Shown here in pieces: positions 4,504 to 42,907 of a stretch of DNA of 42,907 bases. The translations under genes were made by a program, and so were the position numbers. The stretch lies in the IMG/VR virus record IMGVR_UViG_3300021185_001196, positions 1-42,907 of that record. One strand, 5' to 3'. Below the pieces are notes generated by a model that worked only from the letters and a program-made list of their open reading frames with translations, did no database searches and was not told the origin of the DNA. This DNA is from a virus. Numbering within the stretch: position 1 is the stretch's first letter; every line of letters begins with the position of its first letter.

Positions 4504-4794
4504 ATGACGTTTTTATATACCCGTACCAATACGTGGAGTAGTACACCACAACCAAATGAAGAAACCATTAAGTTATGGGAACACATCTCACAGAAGAAAA
4601 ACTGGAGAATAACTCAATTACCTAATGGATTTTTACAAACCGAATACAAAGACATGAACTCAAATGAATGGGTTGATGTAACCAGAAGAGAAACAATAGC
4701 TGGAGCAGAGCAAGCAATAGATAGTTCTATTGAGCACTACACTAAAAAGCTAGAGTTTACCAAAGGACCGAAAGTTGTAAAAACCTTCGAATAG
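4504..4794 (+). CDS. Small unknown protein preceding the chaperonin genes
   Basis: A 96-aa soluble protein with several Trp residues (TNTWSS, LWEHISQKKNWRI, NEWVDV) and a C-terminal helix (AGAEQAIDSSIEHYTKKLEF). No known motif. It starts after a two-hairpin intergenic segment and is separated by 31 bases from the GroEL homologue, so it may be in the same transcript. Function unknown. Confidence 0.7.
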   Translation: MTFLYTRTNTWSSTPQPNEETIKLWEHISQKKNWRITQLPNGFLQTEYKDMNSNEWVDVTRRETIAGAEQAIDSSIEHYTKKLEFTKGPKVVKTFE

Positions 4795-4825
4795 TATTCA
4801 AATCAATCATATTTAATCAAATCAA

Positions 4826-6370
4826 ATGCAAGAATTAAAGTTAGTTAAAAACCTGACTTTTGGCGATACAGCTAGGAGTCAGGTATTAACCGGCGTTGAG
4901 AAACTTACTAATGCAGTAGGGTCAACGTTAGGTGCGAGTGGAAAATGTGTTATACTAGAAGATAGTTTAGGCAAACCACAAATAACCAAGGATGGAGTAA
5001 CAGTTGCTAATAGTATAACATTACAAGATCCATTACAAAACATTGGAGCTACATTAATAAAACAAGCGGCTCAAAGAACAGTATCAGACGCTGGCGACGG
5101 AACGACTACCGCAACAGTGTTAGCTAAAGCTATACTAGATCAAGCTACAGAGCATTCGCTACTAGATGATCCAAGAGCTGTTAAAGAAGGTATTGACTCA
5201 GGTGTTAGTAAAGTTATAAAGTATTTAAATAAAAAGTCCAGAAAAGTAACTGGCAAAAAAATAGACCAAGTCGCTACTATATCAGCTAATAATGATAAAG
5301 AGTTGGGTAAGGTCATAGGAGAAGCATTCCGATTAGTAGATGAGACAGGGGTTGTTATGATGGAAACAAACGAGCAACCAGAAACTGTAGTTGAGTTAAT
5401 AGAGGGTGTTCAATATGACAGAGCTCTTAAGAACAACCACTTTATTACCAACAAAGAAAAAGGAACGGCTGAGCTTGAAAATCCGTTGGTTCTAATCGTT
5501 GAATCAGTAATACCCAACGTGCGGAAGATTCAGTCAGTCCTTGAATTTATTATAAAAAATGGTAAGAGTCTTCTTATCATTGCAGATGTTGACCCACAAG
5601 TAGTTTCCGCGCTGGCTATGAACAAGACGAAGGGTAATATAAAGGTCAATATCGTAGATGCGCCAATATATGGAATCAGCAAGAAGGATGTATTATCTGA
5701 TCTTTGTGCTGTTACTGGCGCTACACTTATTAATGAAGATCTAGGTGACGATATGGACATAATAAGTCCAGATCATTTAGGTTCATGTGTTAGATCTGTA
5801 ACTAATCACGAAGAGACAATACTTCAAGTAGACTTATCAGATAACGCTGAAGTAAAAGAAACTGTATCTTTACTAGAAAGAAATATAAAAGAAACTAAAA
5901 ACCCTAATATTATTATTAGACTAGAGAAACGATTAGCTAAATTAAAAGCTAAAGTTGCTACAGTTAAAGTTGGGGCTAACTCTGAAATAGAACTGAAAGA
6001 GAAGAGGGATAGAGTTGAAGATGCTATTTGTGCTACAAAAGCTGCGATTAAAGAAGGTATAGTGCCAGGAGGCGGTATAGCTTTGTTAAATGCTAGTTTT
6101 AATTTAAAACCGACTTGTATAGGTGAAGAAGTACTTTACAGTGCTATTAGAAGACCTCACGAGTTGATATTAAACAATGCTGGTATTAGCGATATAAAAA
6201 AGCTTGAAGAAGGCATGGGATTAGATGTGGTTACAGGAAAAACGGTGGATATGGTAAAAGCCGGAATTATAGATCCTTTGTTAGTTACTAAGAGCGCATT
6301 AACAAACGCAGCTTCAGTAGCTACCACTATATTATCAACTGATTGTGTAATTAATAACATAAGAGCATGA
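4826..6370 (+). CDS. groEL: Phage-encoded GroEL-type chaperonin (Hsp60)
   Basis: A 514-aa group I chaperonin subunit, expected to form an ATP-driven folding ring in the host cytoplasm. Active-site elements align by eye with E. coli GroEL: ITKDG (53-57), AGDGTTTATV (89-98, D91 matching Asp87), RVEDA with D399 matching catalytic Asp398, then PGGG, and GIIDP near the end. The apical domain is recognisable from EGVQYDR (193-199). Oddities: TLGA at 34-37 replaces TLGP of the ATP loop. By alignment, two apical groove positions change (Y203 to H205, L234 to Q236). The equatorial part after PGGG is shorter. The protein stops after DCVINNIRA with no Gly-Gly-Met tail (E. coli has 548 residues). It overlaps the groES gene by 4 bases, in the reverse of the usual bacterial groES-groEL order. 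Its place among late genes suggests it folds virion proteins. Confidence 0.95.
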   Translation: MQELKLVKNLTFGDTARSQVLTGVEKLTNAVGSTLGASGKCVILEDSLGKPQITKDGVTVANSITLQDPLQNIGATLIKQAAQRTVSDAGDGTTTATVLAKAILDQATEHSLLDDPRAVKEGIDSGVSKVIKYLNKKSRKVTGKKIDQVATISANNDKELGKVIGEAFRLVDETGVVMMETNEQPETVVELIEGVQYDRALKNNHFITNKEKGTAELENPLVLIVESVIPNVRKIQSVLEFIIKNGKSLLIIADVDPQVVSALAMNKTKGNIKVNIVDAPIYGISKKDVLSDLCAVTGATLINEDLGDDMDIISPDHLGSCVRSVTNHEETILQVDLSDNAEVKETVSLLERNIKETKNPNIIIRLEKRLAKLKAKVATVKVGANSEIELKEKRDRVEDAICATKAAIKEGIVPGGGIALLNASFNLKPTCIGEEVLYSAIRRPHELILNNAGISDIKKLEEGMGLDVVTGKTVDMVKAGIIDPLLVTKSALTNAASVATTILSTDCVINNIRA

Positions 6371-6627
6371 AGGCGGTAGGTAAATATATAGTTATTGAAC
6401 CTATCAAAGAAGTTGATGTTCAAACAAAAGGTGGGTTAATTCTAGCTGAAAAGCAAAGAGAAGATGTTAGATACAGAAGAGCTAAGGTTGTAGAACCTGG
6501 CTCTGATGTAAATGTATTAAAAAAAGGTGATGAAATCTACTATGACAGATCATCTGGTTTTAATATAGAAATAAACAAAGAGGAATATAAAATCATTAAA
6601 GAGTTTGATGTAGTTATAATATTGTAA
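6367..6627 (+). CDS. groES: Phage-encoded GroES-type co-chaperonin (Hsp10)
   Basis: An 86-aa co-chaperonin that should cap the chaperonin ring. The N-terminal strand KYIVIEPIKE is followed by the mobile-loop segment QTKGGLILAEKQ, where GGLIL (22-26) matches GGIVL of E. coli GroES, the part that binds GroEL. The C-terminus (EYKIIKEFDVVIIL) matches the final GroES strands. The segment between KVVEPGSDVNV and LKKGDEIYY is too short for the roof beta-hairpin of bacterial GroES, so the dome roof appears reduced, as known for T4 gp31. The ATG overlaps the groEL stop (ATGA), implying translational coupling. Confidence 0.9.
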   Translation: MKAVGKYIVIEPIKEVDVQTKGGLILAEKQREDVRYRRAKVVEPGSDVNVLKKGDEIYYDRSSGFNIEINKEEYKIIKEFDVVIIL

Positions 6628-6874: not shown

Positions 6875-7309
6875 TTGAGATTAAGAAAGTTAAACTCTTC
6901 TGATTTAAAAGAGCTAAGTTTACTTAAACATTATAGAATAATAAGGAAGTGGGCTTGTAAAATTAATGAATTAACAGACGCAGATCTAGAGCTACTAATC
7001 TACTTAGACGCTATAGATATGTTTACTAAAGATGATTTTAAAAAAGGTACGTACTCATTTAGCTGGGATAACAGGCGCTGGAACAGATTATTGAAACAAG
7101 GGTGGATTATAGTGTGGAGGAAACGAAACCGCACCACTCAAAAATATCATATATATAAAGTATCCTATAAGTGCAAGCAGCTAATTAGTAGAATGTATCG
7201 TATTATGTTAGGCGAAGAAAATATGCCTACAACTAAATTAGAAAATAGTAATAGATATAGCTATAAAGTAATAACAAAAGCAATTGAATATGCCAACAAA
7301 GACAAATGA
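6875..7309 (+). CDS. Winged-helix-like DNA-binding protein
   Basis: A 144-aa protein whose residue pattern suggests a MarR-like winged helix-turn-helix. A helical stretch (INELTDADLELLIYLDAIDM) is followed by SWDNRRWNRLLKQGWIIVWR, then an Arg/Lys-rich beta wing (KRNRTTQKYHIYKVS), and a final helix (CKQLISRMYRIML). I infer a DNA-binding regulator or a virion-associated DNA-binding protein. The first possible start is TTG at 6875, because an in-frame stop lies immediately upstream and no ATG precedes the conserved part. It follows the previous gene by 4 bases and overlaps the next. A rare start codon could keep its level low. Confidence 0.65.
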   Translation: MRLRKLNSSDLKELSLLKHYRIIRKWACKINELTDADLELLIYLDAIDMFTKDDFKKGTYSFSWDNRRWNRLLKQGWIIVWRKRNRTTQKYHIYKVSYKCKQLISRMYRIMLGEENMPTTKLENSNRYSYKVITKAIEYANKDK

Positions 7310-7936: not shown

Positions 7937-8094
7937 TGGGTACACAGGACTTGAAGTTGTATTTACTAAATGCTTCTTCATTTACTCTAGCTAGCATGAA
8001 CTGGATAGAGCCTGCTTTAGAAGTTATACTACTAATGCTGACCATTGGGTACACTGTGCACAAGTGGATGTTGTTACATAATAAAAAGAAATGA
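7936..8094 (+). CDS. One-TM small membrane protein, holin-like
   Basis: A 52-aa protein with a single strong hydrophobic segment (PALEVILLMLTIGYTV) and a basic C-terminal end (LLHNKKK), placing the tail in the cytoplasm by the positive-inside rule. It overlaps the amidase gene by 4 bases (ATGA), a classic holin/endolysin arrangement. I infer a role in releasing or regulating the endolysin. A 3-TM holin-family protein is encoded at 9401, so this one could instead be an antiholin, pinholin or spanin-like accessory. No lipobox is visible. Confidence 0.6.
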   Translation: MGTQDLKLYLLNASSFTLASMNWIEPALEVILLMLTIGYTVHKWMLLHNKKK

Positions 8095-8504
8095 GGAACA
8101 TAAACGAGATTATAATACACTGCTCTGCTACTAGAGAAGGTCAAGATATATCAGTTGATACTATTAGAGAGTGGCATGTAGACGGTAGAGGCTGGTCGGA
8201 TATTGGTTATCATTTTTATATAGAGCTAGATGGTTCTATAAAAAAAGGTAGAGATATAGATAAGACAGGCGCTCATTGCAAAGGTCACAATCGTAATTCA
8301 GTAGGAATTTGTTATTGCGGTGGCGTAGAGAGTGATGGTAAGACTCCTAAGGATACTAGAACACCAATACAAAAAGAAAGTTTGATACACGTGCTTAAAA
8401 CACTTAAGGCGATGTATCCAGAAGCTATTATTTATTCACACAATGAGTTTGCTAACAAAGCTTGTCCAAGCTTCGACGCAACTGGAGAATATAAAAACTT
8501 ATGA
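8091..8504 (+). CDS. N-acetylmuramoyl-L-alanine amidase (T7 lysozyme-like endolysin)
   Basis: A 137-aa zinc amidase (Amidase_2/PGRP fold) that cleaves the bond between N-acetylmuramic acid and L-alanine in peptidoglycan, for lysis. Zinc ligands are visible: H10 in IIHCSAT, H117 in YSHNEF and C125 in KACPSFD. K123 and Y40 (IGYHFYI) match the catalytic Lys128 and Tyr46 of T7 lysozyme. The spacing H117-K123-C125 is identical to the T7 enzyme's H122-K128-C130. No signal peptide, so a holin should release it. T7 lysozyme also inhibits its own RNA polymerase; nothing here shows that activity. The start overlaps the upstream one-TM gene and the stop overlaps the next ATG. Confidence 0.92.
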   Translation: MRNINEIIIHCSATREGQDISVDTIREWHVDGRGWSDIGYHFYIELDGSIKKGRDIDKTGAHCKGHNRNSVGICYCGGVESDGKTPKDTRTPIQKESLIHVLKTLKAMYPEAIIYSHNEFANKACPSFDATGEYKNL

Positions 8505-10167: not shown

Positions 10168-13100
10168 ATGTTTATGGGACTAGGGATGCCAATCCCTGAT
10201 TTATCGAATAAGCCAGGCCCGGGTAGACCAGGTTGGGGACCTGCTGGTACTTATGACTTTCAATTTGAAGTAGATGGCGCTGTAACTATAGAAGCTAACG
10301 CAGCTGGCGCAGGTAACTTTAGGGTAAGCTGGCCAAGTGGTCATGTTGATATACTATCTGGTGATAACCCTTCTGTCGCAGCTCCTGATGGGACGGCTGG
10401 TATTGTATCTATAAACAATGAAGAATTAGATACTACTTATGCTGATGAGTTTAAAATTGTAAGTGGGCAAGTAAATGTAACTAAAGTTATATCTTGGGGT
10501 CAAAATCCTTGGAGTAATGTATTTGAAGCTTTTAAAGACTGTGTAAACTTAACAGACATAAGTACAACATCATTTTTAGCCTCTGGACAAGGGCCAAGTA
10601 GTAACCAAGGTTGTTACATGACTAAAATGTTTGAGGGATGTACCTCATTATTAGAAGTAGATATTAGAAGTTGGGATTTAACAGCCGGTGTTAGCTGGAA
10701 AACTGGTAGTCCATTTATTAATTTAGTTAACCTTGAAAAACTTGATGCAACTGGATTAAAAATTAAATTTCAAGATAACAACAGTTATGCTAGAAACTGG
10801 TTCGTAAGTGTTGGTAGCGCTACTACTAATGGATGTGAATTTAAGTTATCTGGATTAGATTATTCTAGTACTACTAACACTGGCTTAGTAATAGATTACA
10901 TCTTTAGTAGTGCAAAGTTTAAAGATGGTTCTAATTTATCTAATTGGAAGTTTCCAAGCCACGCGAACTCAACATATATATATTGGTTTAACTCAGCTAG
11001 AATAAGTGGTACTTTAGATATGTCTGGGTGGACTACATTTAATGGTACCTCTCTTGAAAGTATGTTCTATAGATTTAATCAGCATTTAACAGCGGCTGAT
11101 GGATCAAAATTCAACATGTCTAATTGGAATTTCCCATATGCGACTAGCTTTTATAGAATGTTTTGGGAATGTGAAATATCAGAAATAATAGGTCTTAATA
11201 CTTGGGGAGCGACTAATGGTAGTCCAATTAATTTTAAAGAGATGTTTAAAGCTGCTACCCTCATGAGAATAAATCCTAGTGACAATTTCTCAAATGCTTT
11301 TTCTTCTAGTTTAAATGTGGGTAACGTTAGAGACATGTGTAATGCGTTAAGTAGTGGGCTTGCTAACGCTGACGTAGGTGCTTCACCTAGTTTTGTAGGA
11401 GCTGACTTTTCAAGTATGACTAATAGTTTTGCATTTATGTTTCGATCAGCTAAAATTATTAGTAGTCCAGATTTTAGCACTTGCACGTTTTCAGCTAGCA
11501 ATCCAATGAATTTTGGTAACATATTCTATACAACAACTATAACTGATACTAATAATCATTTTATACTAAATAACCAAAACTTAGCTATATCATACATAAG
11601 CCAGGCTTTTTGGCAGACATCAATAAGGAGAGTAACTATAGGTGATAATGTAGATTTATCAAATCTAGTTACTATAGATTACATGTCTTATCAAGCTGGC
11701 TTCGACACCGGCGGACTTACATTACCTTCAAACGCTAACTATAGTTCTTTAACTGTTATTGGTCAATATGCTTTTGCAAATAATGCGTTGTCAACTTGTC
11801 AAGTAGATACTTTTATTAGGCAAAATTGGGAAACTAACTTAAATACTGGACTTACTTGTGATTTAGAAAATAATAAAATAACAGCTGCTCCAAGTATTGC
11901 TAGATCAAATGCAGCTTCTTTATCAAGTGTTAGAACTTGGAATATAACTTTAGGTTCTCCAGACGCTACTCTACCATTTGCTTATGCAAGTTATGCTGTA
12001 GATCCAACAGGCATAACAACAATTTCACCTACTGTAACGCCTCCGGCAGGTTCTGTATTTACAGCAACTAATAGTCTTAGCATAAGTTCTAGTGGTGTTA
12101 TAACAATAGGTACATTTAGAGGTGGTTCTACAATTAGATGTACATATCCTGATGGATGTTACAACGAAGTTGTTATGTTAATACAAGTTCCATTTACAAT
12201 GAGAACTACAATACCAGCTAATGGTTCAAACTTTACACTTTCTCCTCAAATGTCAAATGGTGAGTGTTTTGTAGACTGGGGTGATACTAATTCTCAAACT
12301 TTAACTGCAAGTACAACTCATAATTATACCAGTTCAGGCACTTATGATATAAAGATATTTGACTCGGCAAACGGATCTAAGTTTACAGGTTTTAGCAGTC
12401 CTTGGACTACCCCTACTTATACTTACGAAAAATCTATTTTAAAGTGGGGAGATATAGAATGGCAAAATAATAATTGGTTTTACAGTTCTGGAAGCAATAA
12501 TACTGATAACAAAATAAGAGTAGAAGCTCCAGCAGGATCTAGCAATGCTCCTAATTTATCAAATGTGACATCTTTATCAGATATGTTTAGCAGTACTTTT
12601 ACTGCAAATAGAACTGGTTATTTTGAAGACGTTAATGGAAACTTATCTGACTGGGATGTTAGTACTATTACTGATATGAACAGAATGTTTAAAACTTTTG
12701 ATGCTAACGGATGTACGATAGATATAAGAAACTGGAACGTTAGTAATGTAGAAAATTTTTCAAAATGGGGAGAAAATAGTAGTATAATATTTAATATTGA
12801 CAACTGGGTTACTTCTTCAGCTACAGACATGAGTCAAATGTGCAACGGTGTGAGCTCTACGTCTACTGGTATAGAAAATTTAGTTACAACTAACGTTACT
12901 ACTTTATACCAGTTTGGATATGTTACTTTTGACGGTAACACAAAAATGGTAAATAATGTATTAAGATGGGATGTTAGCAATTGCACTAATTTCAGTGCGA
13001 TGGGCTGTAACTGGGCTACAAACTCTAATTTCCCTAGCAATTGGAAACTAAGTGATGATGCTAGTAAAAATATTAGTATGCAGCAATTTTGTGGTGTTGG

Positions 13101-16077
13101 CGCACTTACTGCGCCTTATGGTGTAGATGATGTTAATGCTTTTGCTACTAAAACTATAAATCAAAGTTGGCATGGTGGATCATCTTATGTTGCTTGGGAT
13201 GTTAGCAATGTTACTAATTTTTACTTGTTTGGTGGGCAAAACAATAATGTAGTTCAAGGTGGTGTATTCCCGAATTGGAATATTGGAACTTGGAATATAA
13301 CTTCTAAGACAACAAACATGCTTAATATGTTTGCTACTGGACAGTGGCGTGGATCAATTCCAAACTACTTTGATCAAGATCTAAGTGGTTGGGACATAAG
13401 CGGTATAACGAGTTTAAATTTAATAAATGGAGCTACAAGTAGAGGCAGACATATGATGAACATGTCTACATCTAATTACGACGCAACATTAATAGGTTGG
13501 GGAGCTCACGCCGCTAACGCTCAATCAGGCGTTACTGTTAACTTTGGTATTAGTAAATATTCACCTGGAAATATATTTGAAGGTACTCAAGGTACTAACA
13601 CTTACCAAGGTAATAGTATATATGGTAGTGGAAAAGACATGGAACAGTTTGTTAGTGTTGGAGATGTAGTAGAAAGGCCACCAGATCCAAACGGGATTTT
13701 TGATACTTACGCTATTGTAACTGGATTTAATACCTGGAATGGATCAAGATATTTAAGAGCTACAACTCAAGGTAATATTGGACCATCTACTTATACTGTT
13801 ATGGATTCAGACGCTGCTAAAGGTAGAGTTGCATTAATAAATGCTGGGTGGACTATAACAGATGGCGGAGCTGATATACCTTTTGCATCTACAGAGTTAA
13901 TTATTGATGTCAACGCTGGGGATACTTTTACTGTATTTAGCTCAGGTAGTAATAATAACTACAGTGTAGATTGGGGTGATGGTAATGGTTTTAGTTCTAC
14001 TCCATATACTGGAACATCAGCAACAGGTCCAGCTTATGCTACTGGTGGTGAAAAAACTATAAAAATAAATAAAGATTCAAGTGAGAAAATAAACGCATTG
14101 TATTTTTACAACCAAGTAGGCACAATTAACAAAATTAAAAAGATAAGTAATTGGGGTACTAATTCTTGGGATAGTTTGTATAGAGCTTTTAAATGTCACG
14201 ACACTGCCGCAGATAGAAGAGTTCACCCTGATTTTACGGTAGAGTCACCAACCCCACCTAACTTCTCTAACGGGCCCAATATCAATAGTATTTTTGATAG
14301 ATGTAATGTAAATAATAATATATTTACTAATAGTCAAGTAAGTAATTGGAATGTTAGATCACTTAGTAGTCTTTACGGGGTTTTCTATAAGTGCTTTGGA
14401 TTTAATGAAGACATAAGCGGATGGGATACAAGCTACATAACCACTTTTGATTACGCTTTTGGTTATTGTTCTAGTTTGAACTCAGACATAAGCAACTGGG
14501 ATACTAGTAGACTTACAACCATGCATACATCTTTTGCAGGATGCTCTAGTTTAAATGCAGATTTAAATACTAAAGACACTGGCAGCAGATTAGCTTGGGA
14601 CGTTAGTAAAGTAAGTGGTTTTAATTCAGCTTTAGCAGGTACTAGCATGTCGTACAATATTGACAAATGGCAGATAAAAACTACCGGTGGAGTTTATTTT
14701 CAATCACTTTTCAACAATTGTAATTGGCCAAATTTAACTTTAACTCCTAAAACTGTTACTGTAGGAAGTGGCGCTTATCAAAAAACATATTTAGCTTGGG
14801 ACACTCAACAAGTCACTAGAATGGATGCTATGATTGCTAGTGGTAGTTTTAATACTGATATTGGAAAATGGGATACTAGTAGTGTTACAACCCTAGATGG
14901 TTTTGCTAAAAGTAATAGCGTTTTTAACAACGGCGGTCAACCCATGAACGCTAGGCAAGTAACGGTTGGAACAGGAACTACCGCTAGAACTTACACGGCT
15001 TGGGATACTAGTAATATTTCTGCTTGGAAGGAGGTTTTTAGAAATGCAACGAGTTTTAATCAAGACATAGGAAACTGGGATCTTTCTGGAGCTACTGGAA
15101 ATGTATATAGAATTTTAGAAAACGCCTCATCATTTAACCATGAAGTTGATTGGGTTCTTCCAACGGGGTTCACGCCTAACTACGCTTGGGGATGGTTCTT
15201 TTTCGCTAACACTAACATGAGTACTGTTAACTATACAAATACTATAGTAAATTTTGCTAACACAGTATATAACAACTCAGGACTTTACAATGCTACTGGT
15301 AACAATATAGGTGGTGGTCAAACTTTTGATTCAAATATGTCTGGTGGAGCTAACTTCGCTAACGCTTGGGAAGCTAGATCTTATTTAACTAGTACTGTTG
15401 CTAGTGGTGGTGCTGGTTGGACCTTGTCAGGTGATACTGTGCTACCTTTGTTAGTTCCTAGTACAAGTTCTTTATCATTTAATGGTAATAGTGGATATAT
15501 TAATAGCTATGGAAGTTCTTCTTTAAATTTAACAAGTGCTTTAACTGTTTCTATGTACATCAAGATTGAAGATGAAACAAATTCAGGATATAGAGGTTTA
15601 TTTACTAAAGGAGAAATAACCACAGCTGGATTTGGTAGTTATTCTGCTGCTGTCATAAACGCTCAGAATAACATAAGATTTTATTTAAACTCTGGAGGCC
15701 CAAGCACTACACCTATAAATATAACTACTACTTCTGGCTTGTTATTTGATCGATGGTATCATGTTTGTTTTACTTATGATGGGTCTTTATCTTCTAATAA
15801 AGCAAAAACCTATATAGATGGAGTAAATCAAAGTGTAAGCTCATCAGGAACAATACCTAGTTCTTTGTATTCTAACACTAGCAGTAATTTTCACATAGGA
15901 GCTTATTATAACACAAGTTTACTTTTTGAAGGAAACATTGATGAAGTAATGATTTGGGACAATGTAATATCAACGAGCAATATACAAACTCTTGCCGATG
16001 CTGTAGGATCAGGTAATGTAACAAATCCAGAACAATTATCAACAGGACTCCAACTATGGAACCGAATGGGAGATTAA
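10168..16077 (+). CDS. Giant adhesin-like fibre with BspA/DUF285 repeats and a C-terminal LamG domain
   Basis: A 1969-aa protein, the longest complete gene here. It has three similar modules. Each begins with a PKD-like strand around a 'xVxWxxG' motif (FRVSWPSG near residue 50, CFVDWGDTN near 700, YSVDWGDGN near 1267) and continues with repeats of about 25 residues of the BspA/Mycoplasma DUF285 type. Examples are LSDWDVSTITDMNRMF, ISGWDTSYITTFDYAFGYC and ISNWDTSRLTTMHTSFAGC. Residues ~1768-1940 form a LamG/concanavalin-like domain (SLSFNGNSGYINSYG, then WYHVCFTYDG). No signal peptide is visible, as expected for a phage fibre. DUF285 repeats occur in bacterial surface proteins, so this is probably a host-binding fibre or one that mimics or binds host surface proteins. 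The repeats are divergent. Confidence 0.85.
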   Translation: MFMGLGMPIPDLSNKPGPGRPGWGPAGTYDFQFEVDGAVTIEANAAGAGNFRVSWPSGHVDILSGDNPSVAAPDGTAGIVSINNEELDTTYADEFKIVSGQVNVTKVISWGQNPWSNVFEAFKDCVNLTDISTTSFLASGQGPSSNQGCYMTKMFEGCTSLLEVDIRSWDLTAGVSWKTGSPFINLVNLEKLDATGLKIKFQDNNSYARNWFVSVGSATTNGCEFKLSGLDYSSTTNTGLVIDYIFSSAKFKDGSNLSNWKFPSHANSTYIYWFNSARISGTLDMSGWTTFNGTSLESMFYRFNQHLTAADGSKFNMSNWNFPYATSFYRMFWECEISEIIGLNTWGATNGSPINFKEMFKAATLMRINPSDNFSNAFSSSLNVGNVRDMCNALSSGLANADVGASPSFVGADFSSMTNSFAFMFRSAKIISSPDFSTCTFSASNPMNFGNIFYTTTITDTNNHFILNNQNLAISYISQAFWQTSIRRVTIGDNVDLSNLVTIDYMSYQAGFDTGGLTLPSNANYSSLTVIGQYAFANNALSTCQVDTFIRQNWETNLNTGLTCDLENNKITAAPSIARSNAASLSSVRTWNITLGSPDATLPFAYASYAVDPTGITTISPTVTPPAGSVFTATNSLSISSSGVITIGTFRGGSTIRCTYPDGCYNEVVMLIQVPFTMRTTIPANGSNFTLSPQMSNGECFVDWGDTNSQTLTASTTHNYTSSGTYDIKIFDSANGSKFTGFSSPWTTPTYTYEKSILKWGDIEWQNNNWFYSSGSNNTDNKIRVEAPAGSSNAPNLSNVTSLSDMFSSTFTANRTGYFEDVNGNLSDWDVSTITDMNRMFKTFDANGCTIDIRNWNVSNVENFSKWGENSSIIFNIDNWVTSSATDMSQMCNGVSSTSTGIENLVTTNVTTLYQFGYVTFDGNTKMVNNVLRWDVSNCTNFSAMGCNWATNSNFPSNWKLSDDASKNISMQQFCGVGALTAPYGVDDVNAFATKTINQSWHGGSSYVAWDVSNVTNFYLFGGQNNNVVQGGVFPNWNIGTWNITSKTTNMLNMFATGQWRGSIPNYFDQDLSGWDISGITSLNLINGATSRGRHMMNMSTSNYDATLIGWGAHAANAQSGVTVNFGISKYSPGNIFEGTQGTNTYQGNSIYGSGKDMEQFVSVGDVVERPPDPNGIFDTYAIVTGFNTWNGSRYLRATTQGNIGPSTYTVMDSDAAKGRVALINAGWTITDGGADIPFASTELIIDVNAGDTFTVFSSGSNNNYSVDWGDGNGFSSTPYTGTSATGPAYATGGEKTIKINKDSSEKINALYFYNQVGTINKIKKISNWGTNSWDSLYRAFKCHDTAADRRVHPDFTVESPTPPNFSNGPNINSIFDRCNVNNNIFTNSQVSNWNVRSLSSLYGVFYKCFGFNEDISGWDTSYITTFDYAFGYCSSLNSDISNWDTSRLTTMHTSFAGCSSLNADLNTKDTGSRLAWDVSKVSGFNSALAGTSMSYNIDKWQIKTTGGVYFQSLFNNCNWPNLTLTPKTVTVGSGAYQKTYLAWDTQQVTRMDAMIASGSFNTDIGKWDTSSVTTLDGFAKSNSVFNNGGQPMNARQVTVGTGTTARTYTAWDTSNISAWKEVFRNATSFNQDIGNWDLSGATGNVYRILENASSFNHEVDWVLPTGFTPNYAWGWFFFANTNMSTVNYTNTIVNFANTVYNNSGLYNATGNNIGGGQTFDSNMSGGANFANAWEARSYLTSTVASGGAGWTLSGDTVLPLLVPSTSSLSFNGNSGYINSYGSSSLNLTSALTVSMYIKIEDETNSGYRGLFTKGEITTAGFGSYSAAVINAQNNIRFYLNSGGPSTTPINITTTSGLLFDRWYHVCFTYDGSLSSNKAKTYIDGVNQSVSSSGTIPSSLYSNTSSNFHIGAYYNTSLLFEGNIDEVMIWDNVISTSNIQTLADAVGSGNVTNPEQLSTGLQLWNRMGD

Positions 16078-20240: not shown

Positions 20241-20442
20241 TATAGGTTCTGATTACAAGAATGATGCAATGCATTATTCAACTGGTCAGGAAGTGTACGG
20301 TGGACATACTATTAGTGATATTCTTTTTGAAGATCAAGATCAATCATATAATATTTTTATAACTAAAAATAATGAAGTCTTGCCTTGGAAAAAGTTTAAC
20401 GCTAATATGGCAATATCTGTAGAGTACGATTTAAAGTACTAA
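20215..20442 (+). CDS. Small beta-rich phage protein of unknown function
   Basis: A 75-aa protein, MSKVIRKISIGSDYKNDAMH at the start, then GGHTISDILFEDQ, ending with a Trp-Lys-Lys segment and ISVEYDLKY. The pattern recalls a small family often found near terminase genes in marine phages. It overlaps both neighbours: the coiled-coil gene by 26 bases and the GroES-like gene by one (TAATG). Confidence 0.7.
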   Translation: MSKVIRKISIGSDYKNDAMHYSTGQEVYGGHTISDILFEDQDQSYNIFITKNNEVLPWKKFNANMAISVEYDLKY

Positions 20443-21035
20443 TGAAAAGTTTATACAGTTTCATTGTTAAACCACTAGATGAAAGGTATGACAATATTAG
20501 AAAGGTTGAAGAAAAAGAGCTTATTATTAATACAAGTATTGAAAACCATAGGTTTGTTAGTAAAAAAGCTGCTGTTGTATCTACTCCAGCGGCTTACACC
20601 TCAAAGATAAAAGTAGGTGATGAGCTTTACGTACATCACAATATATTTAGAAGATGGTATGATCAAAAAGATAGAGAACGTAATAGCTCTACATTTTTTA
20701 AAGATGACTTATATTTTGTTTCACCAGAACAAATATATATGTATAATCTCAAACCACATTTAGATTATTGTTTTGTAAAACCACTTAAAAACCAAAACAT
20801 TTTAGAGAACAGAAAAGAACAACCTAACGTTGGTGTAGTGAAATATAGTAATAGTTCATTAGAAACGCTAGGAATCACTCCTGGAACACTTATTACGTTT
20901 ACCCCTGACTCTGAGTTTGAGTTTATTATAGATGGTGAACGACTTTATTGTATGAAATCAAATGATATAGCTTTAACGCATGAATACCAAGGAAACGAAA
21001 AAGAAAATAATCCAAGCTGGGCAAAAGGCGATTGA
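20442..21035 (+). CDS. Tandem GroES-like (double Cpn10-fold) protein
   Basis: A 197-aa protein that appears to contain two GroES-like beta domains. Domain 1 (about 1-100) has FIVKPLDERYD at the start, IKVGDELYVHHN at 56-67 (matching 'vkvGDiVif' of GroES) and LYFVSPEQIYMYN at its end. Domain 2 (about 106-183) has YCFVKPLKN at 109, ITPGTLITF near 146, then a segment matching the GroES end (IIDGERLYCMKSNDIAL). The Gly-Gly mobile loop is absent in both, so it may not bind the chaperonin in the usual way. It may be a structural or terminase-associated protein with the same fold. It lies directly upstream of the packaging genes and overlaps the next gene by 56 bases. Fold assignment is by eye. Confidence 0.65.
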   Translation: MKSLYSFIVKPLDERYDNIRKVEEKELIINTSIENHRFVSKKAAVVSTPAAYTSKIKVGDELYVHHNIFRRWYDQKDRERNSSTFFKDDLYFVSPEQIYMYNLKPHLDYCFVKPLKNQNILENRKEQPNVGVVKYSNSSLETLGITPGTLITFTPDSEFEFIIDGERLYCMKSNDIALTHEYQGNEKENNPSWAKGD

Positions 21036-21255
21036 GGAACTTATAAAGGTAGCAAAAGAAAAGATTGTAGACTCAGACGACGATGTAAGCGCTGATAGAT
21101 TAAAGAATGCTGCCGCTACTAAAAAGCTAGCAATAATGGATGCTTTTGAAATATTGACTAAAATACAGGATGAAGAAGACATGCTGAATGATAAACCTAA
21201 AGAAGTTAAAATAGAAAAAGCTTTTAAAGGTTTTGCAGAAGGGAGAAGTAAGTGA
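20980..21255 (+). CDS. Candidate small terminase subunit
   Basis: A 91-aa, mostly helical protein directly upstream of the large terminase, overlapping it by 4 bases. The helix KKKIIQAGQKAIEELIKVAK is followed by an acidic turn (SDDDVSADRLKNAAATKK), another helix (LAIMDAFEILTKIQDEE) and a charged tail. Position and size fit a small terminase subunit, which recognises phage DNA and forms a ring on the motor. No obvious helix-turn-helix, so this rests on context. The ATG at 20980 lies inside the preceding gene; the next in-frame Met would remove the first helices, so the long overlap seems real. Confidence 0.55.
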   Translation: MNTKETKKKIIQAGQKAIEELIKVAKEKIVDSDDDVSADRLKNAAATKKLAIMDAFEILTKIQDEEDMLNDKPKEVKIEKAFKGFAEGRSK

Positions 21256-23480
21256 GTTACAAGCAAACACTTTGGAGAGAAATTAAGGACGTTGTAAATC
21301 CTAAGATATTAGCTAAAAACAATAGATTTAAAAAATGGGAGTATGGTTATAACTCTGATTATGATTTTATAGTAATAAGTAAAACTGGAAAAATTGGACA
21401 AATCATTGAAATACAAGATCTCAGGATTGCTTTACCAGCAGCAGATGAACCGTTTAAACGAAGCGAAAAGAAAGCGGAGCAACGTTGGGAAAGACAAGAA
21501 TATCCGAAAGAGCTAAGTAAAATTAAAAGTAGATTTGACTGGGAAGAATATCCAGCTGAATTTAAAGAAAAGTGGTATGATTACATCGACGAAGAATTCA
21601 AAAGGCGAGAAAATGGTTATTGGTTTTACAATAACGGCGTGGCTAATTACATTACTGGTACTCATTACATGTACCTCCAGTGGTCAAAAATCGATATTGG
21701 AGCACCAGACTATAGAGAAGCTAACAGACTCTTCTTTATATTTTGGGAAGCATGTAAAGCAGATACAAGATGTTACGGAATGTGCTATCTTAAAAACAGA
21801 CGATCTGGATTCTCTTTTATGTCATCAGCGGAACTTGTTAACCAAGCTACAATATCTTCCGACGCTAGATTCGGCATATTGTCCAAGTCTGGTTCAGATG
21901 CCAAGAAAATGTTCACAGATAAAGTTGTACCCATATCAGTCAACTACCCGTTCTTCTTTAAACCTATTCAAGACGGTATGGACAGGCCAAAAACGGAGCT
22001 TGCATATCGTGTTCCGGCATCAAAGCTTACTAGAAGAAAGCTTGAATCAAATGAACAACTTAGAGAATTAGAAGGACTTGATACAACTATTGATTGGAAA
22101 AACACAGGTGATAACTCTTATGATGGTGAAAAGCTAAAACTATTAGCTCATGATGAAAGTGGTAAATGGGAAAGACCTGATAATATATTAAATAACTGGA
22201 GAGTTACAAAAACTACGTTAAGACTAGGATCAAGAATCGTAGGCAAGTGTATGATGGGCTCAACTTCAAATGCTTTAGATAAAGGTGGAAATAACTTCAA
22301 AAAACTATACTACAATTCAGACGTTACTAAAAGAAATAGAAACGGACAAACATCTTCTGGCCTCTACTCTCTTTTCATCCCTATGGAGTGGAACTACGAA
22401 GGATTCATGGATACTTTTGGATTTCCTGTCTTCGTTAGACAAAAGGGTTCAGTCAAAGGAGTCGATGGTTTTGACATTGCAACAGGAGTCATTGAACACT
22501 GGGAAAACGAAGTTGAAGGACTCAAGTCAGATCAAGACAGTTTAAACGAATACTATAGACAGTTCCCAAGAACTGAAGCTCACGCGTTTAGAGATGAAAC
22601 TAAAGAAAGCCTGTTTAATTTAATTAAAATTTATGAACAAATAGATTTTAACGAAGAATTAAATAACAAAGCTAGCGTCACGAGAGGTAAATTTATGTGG
22701 GAAGGTGGGATTAAAGATACTAGGGTTCAGTTTGTTCCTGATAAAAATGGTAGATTTAACGTTAGCTGGGTTCCACCAAGTGGATTACAAAATAGAATTA
22801 TAGTAAAAAATGGTATTAAGTATCCAGGTAACGAGCATTTAGGCGCTTTTGGATGTGATAGCTACGATATATCAGGAACTGTTGATGGTAAAGGATCTAA
22901 TGGTGCTCTACATGGTCTAACAAAGTTTAGCATGGAAGATGTGCCACCTAATCACTTCTTTCTAGAATACATAGCTAGACCTGAAACATCAGAAATATTC
23001 TTTGAAGAAGTTTTAATGTCTTTGGTATTTTACGGCATGCCAATATTAGCTGAGAATAATAGACCTAGATTATTATACTACTTAAGAAGAAGAGGTTATA
23101 GAGGTTTTAGCATGAATAGACCTGATAAACTATGGAACAGATTATCTGTTACAGAAAAAGAAATAGGTGGAATACCTAATTCAAGTGAAGATATTAAACA
23201 AGCGCATGCAGCGGCAATAGAAGCTTATATAGAAAACTATGTTGGTATATTAGATGGTAAGTTTGGTGATATGTATCTTCAAGAAACCTTACAAGATTGG
23301 TCTAAATTTAATATAAACAATAGAACTAAGTATGATGCAACTATCAGCTCTGGTTTAGCTATTATGGCTTGTAACAAGAACAATTATAGACCTAATGCAA
23401 TTAAAAACAAACAGCCACTTAATTTAAGTTTTAAAAAATACGATAATGAAGGGTTTGTTTCAAAAATACAAAATAAATGA
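21252..23480 (+). CDS. terL: Large terminase subunit (packaging ATPase/nuclease)
   Basis: A 742-aa DNA-packaging motor. The ATPase P-loop variant is LKNRRSGFS (K181-S188), of the 'KxRxxGxS' kind used by several terminases in place of GKS/T. Walker B is LKLLAHDES with D301-E302. The nuclease domain starts at GCDSYDISG (D536), and a late acidic residue is in RTKYDATISSGLA (D695). The protein translocates DNA into the prohead and cuts it to length. The length is close to crAss-like terminases. The start is GTG at 21252, overlapping the upstream stop (GTGA). Its own stop overlaps the portal ATG (ATGA). Confidence 0.92.
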   Translation: MSYKQTLWREIKDVVNPKILAKNNRFKKWEYGYNSDYDFIVISKTGKIGQIIEIQDLRIALPAADEPFKRSEKKAEQRWERQEYPKELSKIKSRFDWEEYPAEFKEKWYDYIDEEFKRRENGYWFYNNGVANYITGTHYMYLQWSKIDIGAPDYREANRLFFIFWEACKADTRCYGMCYLKNRRSGFSFMSSAELVNQATISSDARFGILSKSGSDAKKMFTDKVVPISVNYPFFFKPIQDGMDRPKTELAYRVPASKLTRRKLESNEQLRELEGLDTTIDWKNTGDNSYDGEKLKLLAHDESGKWERPDNILNNWRVTKTTLRLGSRIVGKCMMGSTSNALDKGGNNFKKLYYNSDVTKRNRNGQTSSGLYSLFIPMEWNYEGFMDTFGFPVFVRQKGSVKGVDGFDIATGVIEHWENEVEGLKSDQDSLNEYYRQFPRTEAHAFRDETKESLFNLIKIYEQIDFNEELNNKASVTRGKFMWEGGIKDTRVQFVPDKNGRFNVSWVPPSGLQNRIIVKNGIKYPGNEHLGAFGCDSYDISGTVDGKGSNGALHGLTKFSMEDVPPNHFFLEYIARPETSEIFFEEVLMSLVFYGMPILAENNRPRLLYYLRRRGYRGFSMNRPDKLWNRLSVTEKEIGGIPNSSEDIKQAHAAAIEAYIENYVGILDGKFGDMYLQETLQDWSKFNINNRTKYDATISSGLAIMACNKNNYRPNAIKNKQPLNLSFKKYDNEGFVSKIQNK

Positions 23481-27099: not shown

Positions 27100-28575
27100 A
27101 TGGGATTTTTAGACAATTCTCCTGCTGGAGCATTTCCAGCATCAATCGTCCCTATGCCGAAGAAACAAGCTGTGGTTGATAACTATATCGACTTTAACAA
27201 CTTGTCTAACGGACAGTGGGCACAACAATATCTACCTGAGCTTTATGAAGCAGAAGTAGAAAGATATGGAAACAGAACTTTATCTGCTTTCTTAAGAATG
27301 GTAGGCGCTGAGATGCCTATGACATCTGATCAAGTAATTTGGTCTGAGCAGAATAGATTACACATTGCTTATGAAGGTGCTACAAGAGGAACTGGAACTA
27401 GTAATGTTATAACTCTAGCTACTGGAGCAAATAACGCTGTAAGATTAAATCAAACTGTAGTTATAGCTGATGGCTTTACAACTGTAAAAGCTTTAGTAAC
27501 CGCTGTTTCTGTAGCAAATAGAACTATTACTGCTTTACCTTATGAAGCTGCCGATTTAGGAGCTGCTGGATTAGGAACTGCTGGATTAAAACTATTTGTT
27601 TATGGTTCAGAGTTTGCAAAAGGAACTAGCCAAATGGTTGGATCTATTGAGCCTCAAGTTCAAACTTTCACTAACAACCCAGTTATCATTAAAGATAAAT
27701 TTGAAGTATCAGGTTCTGATGCTGCTCAAATTGGGTGGATTGAAGTTGCTACTGAAGATGGAACATCAGGATACATGTGGTATTTAAAAGCTGAGTCTGA
27801 AACAAGATTACGTTTTGAAGATTACTTAGAAATGACTTGTGTTGAAGGTGTAAAAGCTGCTACTAGTTCAGCTGTTGCTGATGCTACTTACGGTACTAGT
27901 TACGCTGATACTCAGTTTACTGATACTGTTGCTCCAATAGGTACTCAAGGTTTATTTGACGCTATTGAAACAAGAGGTAATGTATGGCAAAATTTTGCTG
28001 GTGCTGCTGCTCCTGGAACTGGTGCATTAGGTGATTTTGATGCTATTCTTAAGCAACTTGACAAGCAAGGAGCTATTGAAGAAAACATGTTATTCTTAAA
28101 CAGAGCTACCGCTTTGGATTTTGATGATATGATTGCTGCTATGGCTGGCGGAGGTTATGCTGGTACACAAGCTGCTTCTTATGGTTTATTTGACAATGAG
28201 TCAGAAATGGCACTTAACTTTGGTTTTTCAGGATTTAGAAGAGGTTCTTATGACTTCTACAAAACTGACTGGAAATACTTAAACGATGCTACTACTAGAG
28301 GTTTAACACAAGATATCGACGGTGTTATGGTTCCTGCTGGTACTACTACTGTTTATGATCAAATGTTAGGATCAAACATTAGACGTCCTTTCTTACACGT
28401 AAGATATAGAGCTTCTCAAACTGATGACAGACGATATAAAAACTGGATTACAGGTTCTGTAGGCGGCGCTTATACTTCTTCTCTTGATGCTATGGAAGTA
28501 CATTTCTTATCTGAAAGATGTTTAGTTACTCAAGCTGCGAATAACTTCGTATTGTTTAAGTCAACTACTATATAA
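27100..28575 (+). CDS. Major capsid protein (HK97-fold)
   Basis: A 491-aa protein expected to form the icosahedral shell. It follows the scaffold-like gene and precedes a small capsid-associated gene. Ala/Gly/Thr-rich composition and a helix then beta layout fit an HK97-type capsid protein. The C-terminal part (DRRYKNWITGSVGG, AMEVHFLSERCLVTQAANNF) resembles the end of capsid proteins from crAss-like phages. The N-terminus (NNLSNGQWAQQYLPELYEAE) also fits that group. Two Cys residues (MTCVEG and SERCLV). Identification is from position, length and pattern; a structure prediction would settle it. Confidence 0.85.
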   Translation: MGFLDNSPAGAFPASIVPMPKKQAVVDNYIDFNNLSNGQWAQQYLPELYEAEVERYGNRTLSAFLRMVGAEMPMTSDQVIWSEQNRLHIAYEGATRGTGTSNVITLATGANNAVRLNQTVVIADGFTTVKALVTAVSVANRTITALPYEAADLGAAGLGTAGLKLFVYGSEFAKGTSQMVGSIEPQVQTFTNNPVIIKDKFEVSGSDAAQIGWIEVATEDGTSGYMWYLKAESETRLRFEDYLEMTCVEGVKAATSSAVADATYGTSYADTQFTDTVAPIGTQGLFDAIETRGNVWQNFAGAAAPGTGALGDFDAILKQLDKQGAIEENMLFLNRATALDFDDMIAAMAGGGYAGTQAASYGLFDNESEMALNFGFSGFRRGSYDFYKTDWKYLNDATTRGLTQDIDGVMVPAGTTTVYDQMLGSNIRRPFLHVRYRASQTDDRRYKNWITGSVGGAYTSSLDAMEVHFLSERCLVTQAANNFVLFKSTTI

Positions 28576-40105: not shown

Positions 40106-42907
40106 ATGGAAGAAAAGTTAGATAAGCTATATAATGTTTTAGTTGAAGAAGGTTTAATCGTTAACGACACTTTTGAAAAGTTTAAAAAAAGATTAAACAC
40201 CGAACAAGGATACGCTGATTTAGTTGCTGACACAGCTATATCAGATGGCTTGTATACAGGTGACAAAGAAAACTTTGAAGTTGAATATTTTTCTGAATTA
40301 AAAAAAGGTAAGAAACCTGAAGAAGAAGTAGTAGTTCAACAGCCTAAAAAAGAAGAAGGTATTAATAGAGATTCTTTAGCTAACAAATATGATTTAATTA
40401 TAAATCAATTTGAAGATCAAAAGTTTAAACCTGAGTTAATAGGTGAAGATAGAGAAAAAGCTATTAGCGATATAAAATCTAAAAAAGATCAAGCGTTAAA
40501 AGATTTTGATTCAGATGAAGATATAGCAAGTTTTGCTGACAGGATATATAAGTTAGGTAAAAAATATTCTTTAACTCAAGAAGATATTGACGCTACTCAA
40601 GTTGGCTTAGAAAAAAAATGGTCTATAATGCCTGATGAAGTAGAAGAAGAAACCATTAAGTTAGATGTATTTGGAAGGCCTATGCCTGGCGCTGTTGAGC
40701 AGGAGTCTACTGTTGATTTAAAATCTATTAATACACCAGCTATAGAAGCAGCTAGATTAGAAGAGCATGGTGATGATTTAAACAATTACAAAAAAGAAGC
40801 TATAAGACAAGGTTACACAGTTGTTGGTGCTTATGATGAGGTTCCAGAGAAAGTTAATAAAGATAAATTAATAAAACTACCTGGACCTTTACAAAACGCT
40901 AATATAAGTGATATATATCCAAAATCTGTTATTGACAATGTTTTAAACGAAAAAAGAACTAAAGTTGCTAAAGATCAAAAGGTAAGAGACATGAAGCCCG
41001 AGCTTGATGCTATACTAGAAGATTTTGAAAATGAAAAAGGAGTAACTGCTGTTGGAGGCCATATATTAGGAACTATAATAGAGGCAGGTGATTTTTTTGA
41101 CAATATATTTTTAGATGATAAATCAAGAGAAAGACAAGAAAAAATATCATTAGAACTTCACAAAGCTATAGGTACCGATGCTTCTTACATGGACGCTAGA
41201 GAAAAACTTAACAGATTACTAAAATCTAAGCAAGATACGGAAAATTATGAAATAGACGTAAACACATACAGAATAGAGGCAGCAAATGACAACTTGCAAT
41301 TACTAGAACATCAATTATTAAGTTACGAAAAAAGAGCTAATAATAATGAAGCTTTTACAGAAAAAGATGTAGCTGAATATAATGTAATAAAAACTGCTTA
41401 CAACAATCAAATAGATGTTGCTAATCAAGCAATGGTTAGACTAGGTGAGTTAACTGTTGAAGGAGTTGATTTTGATGAAATTAAAGACAAAACATTAAAA
41501 ACTTATTCTACTTTATCAGTATATGGTAATAATATAGGATCTAGTGTTGTTAGAATAGCAGGTGGTTTAGCTACATTAAGACATGAACTTACTGTTCCAC
41601 AGCTTGCTAAATGGGCGGGATATGATATAAATGACGCACAAGTAAGATCTGAAATTGCTTCCGGTTTTGATGATTTTTTTGGTACTGAAATAGGTGACGA
41701 TATTGAAGCTGGTTTATCAGTAATAAACAGTGGAAATCAAGAGGTAAAAAATCAAATAGGTAAGTTACATAGTTGGGCAGAAGAAATTAAAGACGAAAAT
41801 AGAGAGAAACAAGACTTCAATAAAATAACAAATCCATTAGAGTTTATTTCTTGGGGCTTTGAAGGTGTTACAGAAAACGCAGTTAACTTAGGAGTTTCAG
41901 CTATCACAGGTGGTAGTGGAGGTTTAGTACTCATGGCGTTATCAGAATCTGGTAACAAGATGAATGAGATGAATAAAGAAATGGAGGGTGAGAAATGGAG
42001 TGATGATGAGTTAAGATTTATTCAAAAAGAAAAAGATAGATTAGGTAATAACTATAGTTTGTTTTACCCGGGTCAAGATGATGAATTTAAAATAAAACCT
42101 AAAAACATAAGCGCTTTACAATATTTTGGAACTGCCGGTATGTATGGAGCTTCTGAATATTTCAGCGAAAAAATTACTTTAGGAAATTTTAAATTTGCTA
42201 AAAACAACATAAAAAAAGCTTGGAAAATAGGCGGTAAATCTACAGATGAAGTAGGCGGCAGGATAATAAACAGTAAATTAAATCCGCTTACTAAAGCAGA
42301 AAACTTTAATATATGGGGTAAACAAGCTTTAAAAGGAACTTTTACAGAAGCTGGTGGCGAAGGATTAGTAACAATGTCTCAGAACTTTGCTGATAGATAT
42401 TTCTTAGATAAATATGATGTTTCAATACTTGACGGTGTAACTGAGTCTATGGTAATGGGCGCATTTATGAATGGTACCATGCAGTCACCAGTATTATTAT
42501 CTCAAGCTTCTAATGCCTTTAGACCTGAAAGTCAAAATGCTTTAGTAGCAAAAACAGGTGCTGAAATACTTTCTTTAAGTAAGCAACGTGATAAAATAGA
42601 TGCTCAAATATTTGCGTTAAAAGGATCTGATCCTGCTGCTATAGAGAAGTTGAAGAACAATAGAAACGAGATACAAGACAACATAATGGATCTTAGTACT
42701 AAGCAGTTAGAAAATATGAGAGAGACTGAAAGTACTATAGCTAGTTTAAGACCATCGGATAGACAAAGCTTAATAGATGTATTTAACAACGAACATAAAG
42801 TAAGAAAAGAAATTGATGATATAAATGAAAATGAATCATTAAGTAAAGCTGATAAGAAAAGTATGATAAATACTCGTTTAGATTATCTTACTAAACAAAA
42901 TGCTAAA
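40106..42907 (+). CDS. Giant candidate internal virion protein (partial, runs off the window)
   Basis: A frame starting at ATG 40106 (MEEKLDKLYNVLVEEGLIV) and open to the last base, so at least 934 aa. The first ~85 residues are charged. The rest alternates helical, charged segments with hydrophobic, Gly/Ala-rich ones: VGGHILGTIIEAG near 317, TENAVNLGVSAITGGSGGLV near 590, ESMVMGAFMNGT near 778. Such membrane-interacting, Gly-rich stretches inside a huge helical protein fit phage ejection proteins, often several thousand residues long. The part seen shows no catalytic motif, so I cannot say if a peptidase, lytic transglycosylase or polymerase lies beyond the end. Confidence 0.75.
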   Translation, partial: MEEKLDKLYNVLVEEGLIVNDTFEKFKKRLNTEQGYADLVADTAISDGLYTGDKENFEVEYFSELKKGKKPEEEVVVQQPKKEEGINRDSLANKYDLIINQFEDQKFKPELIGEDREKAISDIKSKKDQALKDFDSDEDIASFADRIYKLGKKYSLTQEDIDATQVGLEKKWSIMPDEVEEETIKLDVFGRPMPGAVEQESTVDLKSINTPAIEAARLEEHGDDLNNYKKEAIRQGYTVVGAYDEVPEKVNKDKLIKLPGPLQNANISDIYPKSVIDNVLNEKRTKVAKDQKVRDMKPELDAILEDFENEKGVTAVGGHILGTIIEAGDFFDNIFLDDKSRERQEKISLELHKAIGTDASYMDAREKLNRLLKSKQDTENYEIDVNTYRIEAANDNLQLLEHQLLSYEKRANNNEAFTEKDVAEYNVIKTAYNNQIDVANQAMVRLGELTVEGVDFDEIKDKTLKTYSTLSVYGNNIGSSVVRIAGGLATLRHELTVPQLAKWAGYDINDAQVRSEIASGFDDFFGTEIGDDIEAGLSVINSGNQEVKNQIGKLHSWAEEIKDENREKQDFNKITNPLEFISWGFEGVTENAVNLGVSAITGGSGGLVLMALSESGNKMNEMNKEMEGEKWSDDELRFIQKEKDRLGNNYSLFYPGQDDEFKIKPKNISALQYFGTAGMYGASEYFSEKITLGNFKFAKNNIKKAWKIGGKSTDEVGGRIINSKLNPLTKAENFNIWGKQALKGTFTEAGGEGLVTMSQNFADRYFLDKYDVSILDGVTESMVMGAFMNGTMQSPVLLSQASNAFRPESQNALVAKTGAEILSLSKQRDKIDAQIFALKGSDPAAIEKLKNNRNEIQDNIMDLSTKQLENMRETESTIASLRPSDRQSLIDVFNNEHKVRKEIDDINENESLSKADKKSMINTRLDYLTKQNAK

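Follow-up and report, generated by a model that had tools for sequence, protein, structure and literature searches.

The groEL-groES locus

The window, i.e., the whole stretch of DNA analyzed (42,907 bases), corresponds to positions 1-42,907 of the IMG/VR virus record IMGVR_UViG_3300021185_001196. Its + strand carries tail-fibre-like, lysis, terminase, portal, and structural genes, and all features of the window described below lie on this strand. The gene groEL (4826-6370) encodes a group I chaperonin large subunit of 514 amino acids (PF00118, E = 5.9e-55; phrog_5725, chaperonin groEL, E = 7.7e-130) and is followed by groES (6367-6627), which encodes a co-chaperonin of 86 amino acids (PF00166, E = 1.8e-11); the two genes overlap by 4 bases (ATGA, 6367-6370). 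Both scores lie well beyond the curated Pfam cut-offs, and GroEL covers positions 1-488 of the 490 positions of the Cpn60 profile PF00118, which is practically its full length.

Directly 5' of groEL is an open reading frame (ORF) of 96 amino acids and unknown function (4504-4794), whereas groES is followed by an ORF of 144 amino acids (6875-7309, phrog_17028) and the gene of a lysis amidase (8091-8504; PF01510, phrog_822). The large terminase subunit (21252-23480; phrog_6681, E = 8.2e-166) is a marker of the phage group. A virion structural protein of 491 amino acids (27100-28575; phrog_13704, E = 2.1e-94) is, judging from its position and size, the candidate major capsid protein and a possible client of the chaperonin. 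A scan for promoters and terminators gave no signal above chance. The window also contains very large ORFs (10168-16077, 1969 amino acids; 40106-42907, at least 934 amino acids), the latter of which runs off the end; the window therefore represents part of a larger genome, and its relatives suggest a full size of ~60-75 kb.

Just upstream of the terminase gene lies a gene for a protein of 197 amino acids (20442-21035) that matches phrog_13932, labelled co-chaperonin GroES (E = 4.5e-22). The second half of this protein is weakly Cpn10-like (pairwise hhalign E = 7e-4, low probability), no Pfam match was obtained for it, and its AF2 model, built from a shallow alignment, has a pLDDT of 31. At least 346 relatives were found in IMG/VR, and the protein is also present in elemoF and MW202828. 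From its sequence, it may represent a tandem GroES-like protein, the second of this phage, with a link to head assembly.

Conservation of the pair in related phages

The IMG/VR scan retrieved at least 351 relatives of GroEL, 80 of which (64-95% identical) were kept. A groES gene was present 3' of groEL, at the same position, in 78 of the 78 kept loci able to hold it. The flanks are as constant as the pair itself: the 96-amino-acid ORF occupies the same place in 72 related loci and the 144-amino-acid ORF in 77, followed by the amidase and often a holin. Both flanking ORFs could be functional partners. Comparison with twelve relatives gave dN/dS values of 0.06-0.12 for groEL and 0.10-0.19 for groES, consistent with purifying selection. 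The inactive gene that the first-pass annotation had considered as a counter-scenario was not observed, and the dN/dS values together with the intact reading frames rule out a pseudogene.

The phrog_6681 terminase was found in all 16 searched GroEL contigs of at least 43 kb. Among 23 contigs picked up with either the terminase or the GroES-like protein encoded at 20442 as marker, GroEL was present in 10 (one copy being partial, cut by the contig end), and the remaining 13 extend no more than a few kb beyond the terminase in the upstream direction, short of the expected place of GroEL. GroEL was thus present in 10 of the 10 marker-selected contigs that reach far enough upstream. Within the family, the distances of GroEL and terminase correlate (Mantel r = 0.62, p = 2e-4). 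The pair looks like a core gene set of these phages; it is a long-established phage chaperonin that is not peculiar to this contig.

Several of the closest described systems come from other phages. The cultivated Flavobacterium phages of the genus Elemovirus (e.g., NC_055853) share the terminase type, the groEL-then-groES order with overlapping ends, and a GroES (83 amino acids) that lacks the roof hairpin; however, their GroEL is only ~38% identical and retains Y199, L234, and R452. The podovirus MW202828 (Manatee Spring) has the same gene order, a terminase that is 63% identical, and the closest GroES in the phage collection (41%), whereas its GroEL is 33-34% identical and is placed with a Pseudomonadales-MAG sequence. 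It is an exception in degree to the linkage of the two markers, and its values (63% for the terminase against 34% for GroEL) indicate that GroEL was replaced or diverged quickly in one lineage. Callevirus phi38:1, of the same broad phage group, encodes a GroEL and a Cpn10 and has also lost most ring-contact residues, but its order is groES, small ORF, groEL.

In Bacteroidota, the order was groES-groEL in all nine loci with a recognized groES. The order in the window is thus reversed with respect to bacteria, as the first-pass annotation had stated, but it is not the special feature that had been supposed: the same order in the cultivated Elemovirus phages and in MW202828 rules it out as a novelty. 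Phage chaperonin pairs, gene order included, are already known in deposited genomes, and the pair described here is a well-conserved variant. In the 2017 survey of virioplankton chaperonins by Marine et al., gene order was reportedly linked to GroEL phylogeny, and this survey may well include relatives of the pair. We also noted that in Bacteroides phage SJC03 two genes annotated as hypothetical (4724-6623) correspond to a GroEL and a probable short GroES (87 amino acids), in the order groES-groEL.

Phylogeny and probable host

In a tree of 38 rows (LG+C20), the family forms a single clade (100/100) on a long stem outside the Bacteroidota GroELs. It groups with elemoF, MW202828, and phi38:1 at 96/92, with long branches, and the placement of the Elemovirus GroEL is not well resolved. 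Constraining the family to group with Bacteroidota GroELs was rejected (p-AU = 8e-5). Related phage contigs occur in metagenome-assembled genomes (MAGs) of Flavobacteriaceae and other Bacteroidota, along with stray bins in other phyla, and the host of this marine virus is therefore probably a member of the Flavobacteriaceae. Some Bacteroidota MAGs (L102/G001 and L103/G002) contain extra phage-type GroELs beside their own GroEL, which we attribute to phage contigs binned into bacterial genomes.

A recent capture of a flavobacterial host groESL operon with a shuffled order would agree with this probable host and with the presence of a Bacteroidetes-group ancestor among the best PDB matches. However, these MAGs also contain the host's GroEL, which differs clearly from the phage type, and the separate clade with its long stem and the AU test rule out such a capture, which the first-pass annotation had named among the findings that would speak against its reading; we consider it scarcely conceivable.

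Catalytic residues, substrate groove, and C-terminal tail of GroEL

We compared the window GroEL with that of E. coli MG1655 (39% identity) and aligned 88 members of the family against 33 Bacteroidota GroELs. The residues for ATP chemistry are kept, as proposed earlier, with K55, D56, D91, and D399 aligning with E. coli K51, D52, D87, and D398. In E. coli numbering, the ATPase residues D52, D87, and D398 and the motif GDGTTT are invariant in all 88 members, as are all other ATP positions tested, with the exceptions of P33A, K34S, and N479D. The first of these corresponds to the replacement of TLGP by TLGA (amino acids 34-37, 4925-4936), with A37 followed by S38 in the window; alanine is present in 88 of 88 family members and proline in 33 of 33 Bacteroidota sequences.

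Two altered groove positions, Y203H and L234Q, had been reported and were both recovered, but this count was too low, since Y199L, L259V, V263A, and V264M are changed as well. The apical groove segment L201-H205 (5426-5440) corresponds to E. coli Y199-Y203, with leucine in 87 and histidine in 84 of the 88 members. Q236 (5531-5533), the counterpart of L234, is glutamine throughout the family and leucine in the 33 bacterial sequences, and M265 (5618-5620), the counterpart of V264, is methionine in all 88 members. A33, Q234, M264, and F204 are thus invariant in the family, and L199, S34, and H203 nearly so, whereas at positions 33, 199, 203, 234, and 264 all 33 GroELs from Bacteroidota have the same residue as E. 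coli. Such constancy indicates that these changes are fixed features rather than chance or sequencing errors. The earlier view of the two proteins as authentic phage chaperonins that are changed at key positions is borne out. The alignment to E. coli also agreed with the reported absence of the Gly-Gly-Met tail, as the protein ends in NNIRA, and with a shorter equatorial domain. The Gly-Met-rich tail typical of bacterial GroEL is likewise missing in phage members such as elemoF.

The ring-ring interface

The joints between the two GroEL rings are formed by K105/A109/E434 and R452/E461/S463/V464. In the window GroEL, K105 is replaced by E, A109 by L, and R452 by E, E434 is without counterpart, and the stretch E461-V464 is shortened with no residue retained, in an alignment that is difficult near the deletions. 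The counterpart of E434 is missing in a shortened equatorial loop (amino acids 428-431, 6107-6118) as a result of a 7-amino-acid deletion; segment 420-440 measures 14 amino acids in 88 of 88 family members and 21 in 33 of 33 bacteria. E446 (6161-6163), in an ungapped part of the alignment, corresponds to R452, and this position is E in 49 and K in 33 of the 88 members. The region of helix Q, the site of the E461/S463/V464 contacts, is shortened (amino acids 454-459, 6185-6202) by a deletion of 5-6 amino acids, with segment 450-475 comprising 20-21 amino acids in 85 of 88 members and 26-27 in bacteria. In this region, which is hard to align, E461 can be matched with an E in 51 of the 88 members. 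The conservation drop (entropy rise) at the ring-ring positions exceeded that at random positions (p = 0.0015, column resampling over 88 members), these positions having been picked from prior knowledge of GroEL and the alignment being uncertain near the deletions. This loss of the ring interface, absent from the first-pass annotation, is perhaps the most informative change in the protein.

The double ring of GroEL is disrupted by the four substitutions of SR1 (R452E, E461A, S463A, and V464A), one of which, R452E, is the residue change seen here, and a reconstructed group I ancestor changed at E460, S463, and V464 is single-ring (PMC12696368). The deletion or lack of conservation of the ring-joining residues suggests a ring that works alone or weakly paired. 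However, the GroEL homologue of phage EL has lost the GroEL-type contacts and still forms double rings via different 1:1 contacts (PMC7185714), so that contact loss is in itself no proof of single rings. Ring-contact residues are lost in several other phage GroELs too; the interface loss is thus not unique to this family. From sequence, we see about an even chance that this GroEL is single-ring.

An ordinary double-ring GroELS that folds host and phage proteins for the health of the infected cell, with ring contacts merely swapped, would be in line with the fully retained catalytic core and with the remodelled contacts of phage EL (PMC7185714). We regard it as rather unlikely, since the groove changes are fixed and the tail is lost, the ring-contact positions have turned variable instead of being re-fixed, and the chaperonin is always tied to one virion block.

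The GroES lid

GroES has 86 amino acids in every aligned family member. Its AlphaFold (AF2) model (pLDDT 83.8) contains no strands at residues 45-55, between E36-44 and E56-60. A Foldseek search with this model gave Cpn10 structures as best matches (E = 3.9e-6, TM 0.6-0.8), and T4 gp31 (1g31) was also matched. At the site of the roof hairpin there is a short loop (6499-6528) that is ~10 amino acids shorter than in E. coli, whereas the mobile-loop region (6406-6480), with an invariant GGL.L, is ~3 amino acids longer than its bacterial counterparts in the alignment.

T4 gp31 has no roof loops and longer mobile loops, and with this lid GroEL is able to fold gp23, a capsid protein of 56 kDa (PMC6318259). 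Alignment and model show both of these lid traits in the window GroES; but gp31 works with the host GroEL, whereas the phage studied here encodes both parts. The earlier statement that the roof hairpin is absent as in gp31 therefore stands, but its specificity has to be tempered, since Bacteroidota GroES are often already 6 residues shorter at this site. Part of the roof shortening may have been inherited from the host lineage, an adaptation towards an open roof is less specific than a first look suggests, and the idea of a uniquely roofless GroES was tempered for the same reason.

The presence of this lid also bears on the alternative of a holdase-like chaperonin that, as has been suggested for that of phage EL, does not encapsulate its clients and for which GroES would be dispensable or regulatory. 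The altered groove (Y199L, Y203H, L234Q, and V264M), the missing tail, and the fact that the chaperonins of phages EL, OBP, and AR9 need no co-chaperonin would fit such a function; however, the retention of groES beside groEL in 78 of 78 loci and the invariant mobile-loop core GGL.L make it improbable. The homologues of OBP and AR9, which are single-ring, and of EL resemble the window GroEL in having single rings or an altered ring interface, but they are far more distant in sequence, and the phage studied here encodes a GroES of its own. Human mitochondrial Hsp60/Hsp10, although not from a phage, is reported to function as a single ring with a matched lid (PMC5934643).

Proposed function

Taken together, the sequences make it fairly probable that the pair is a functional, phage-dedicated group I chaperonin, probably single-ring and with a gp31-like open-roofed lid, that folds late proteins of the phage. 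GroEL would form a heptameric ATPase ring and GroES would be its own lid; the pair would probably be made late in infection and fold phage proteins, most likely those of the virion or lysis. This role is favored by the consistent linkage of the pair to a single virion block and by its location next to lysis and tail-fibre-like genes. The lid, with its longer mobile loop and no roof hairpin, may leave an open or taller dome, and the matched changes in groove and lid may make GroEL and GroES work mainly together. By analogy with T4 gp23, the 491-amino-acid structural protein is a candidate client; a virion client and a larger folding cage, as suggested in the first-pass annotation, are putative.

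A more far-reaching proposal is that of a natural single-ring phage chaperonin that needs its own open-roofed GroES, has co-evolved with one virion block, and has spread in abundant marine flavophages, in effect a naturally occurring SR1 whose lid is gp31-like. Derived from sequence comparisons, this proposal is tentative, and we would give it somewhat less than an even chance. The laboratory single-ring GroEL SR1 holds its lid too tightly, and the phage single-ring chaperonins studied so far are without a lid. If the proposal is true, a natural ring without ring contacts and with a matched roofless lid would permit a direct test of the purpose of the second ring and of the roof, in a system that a common marine virus group seems to carry as part of its core genome.
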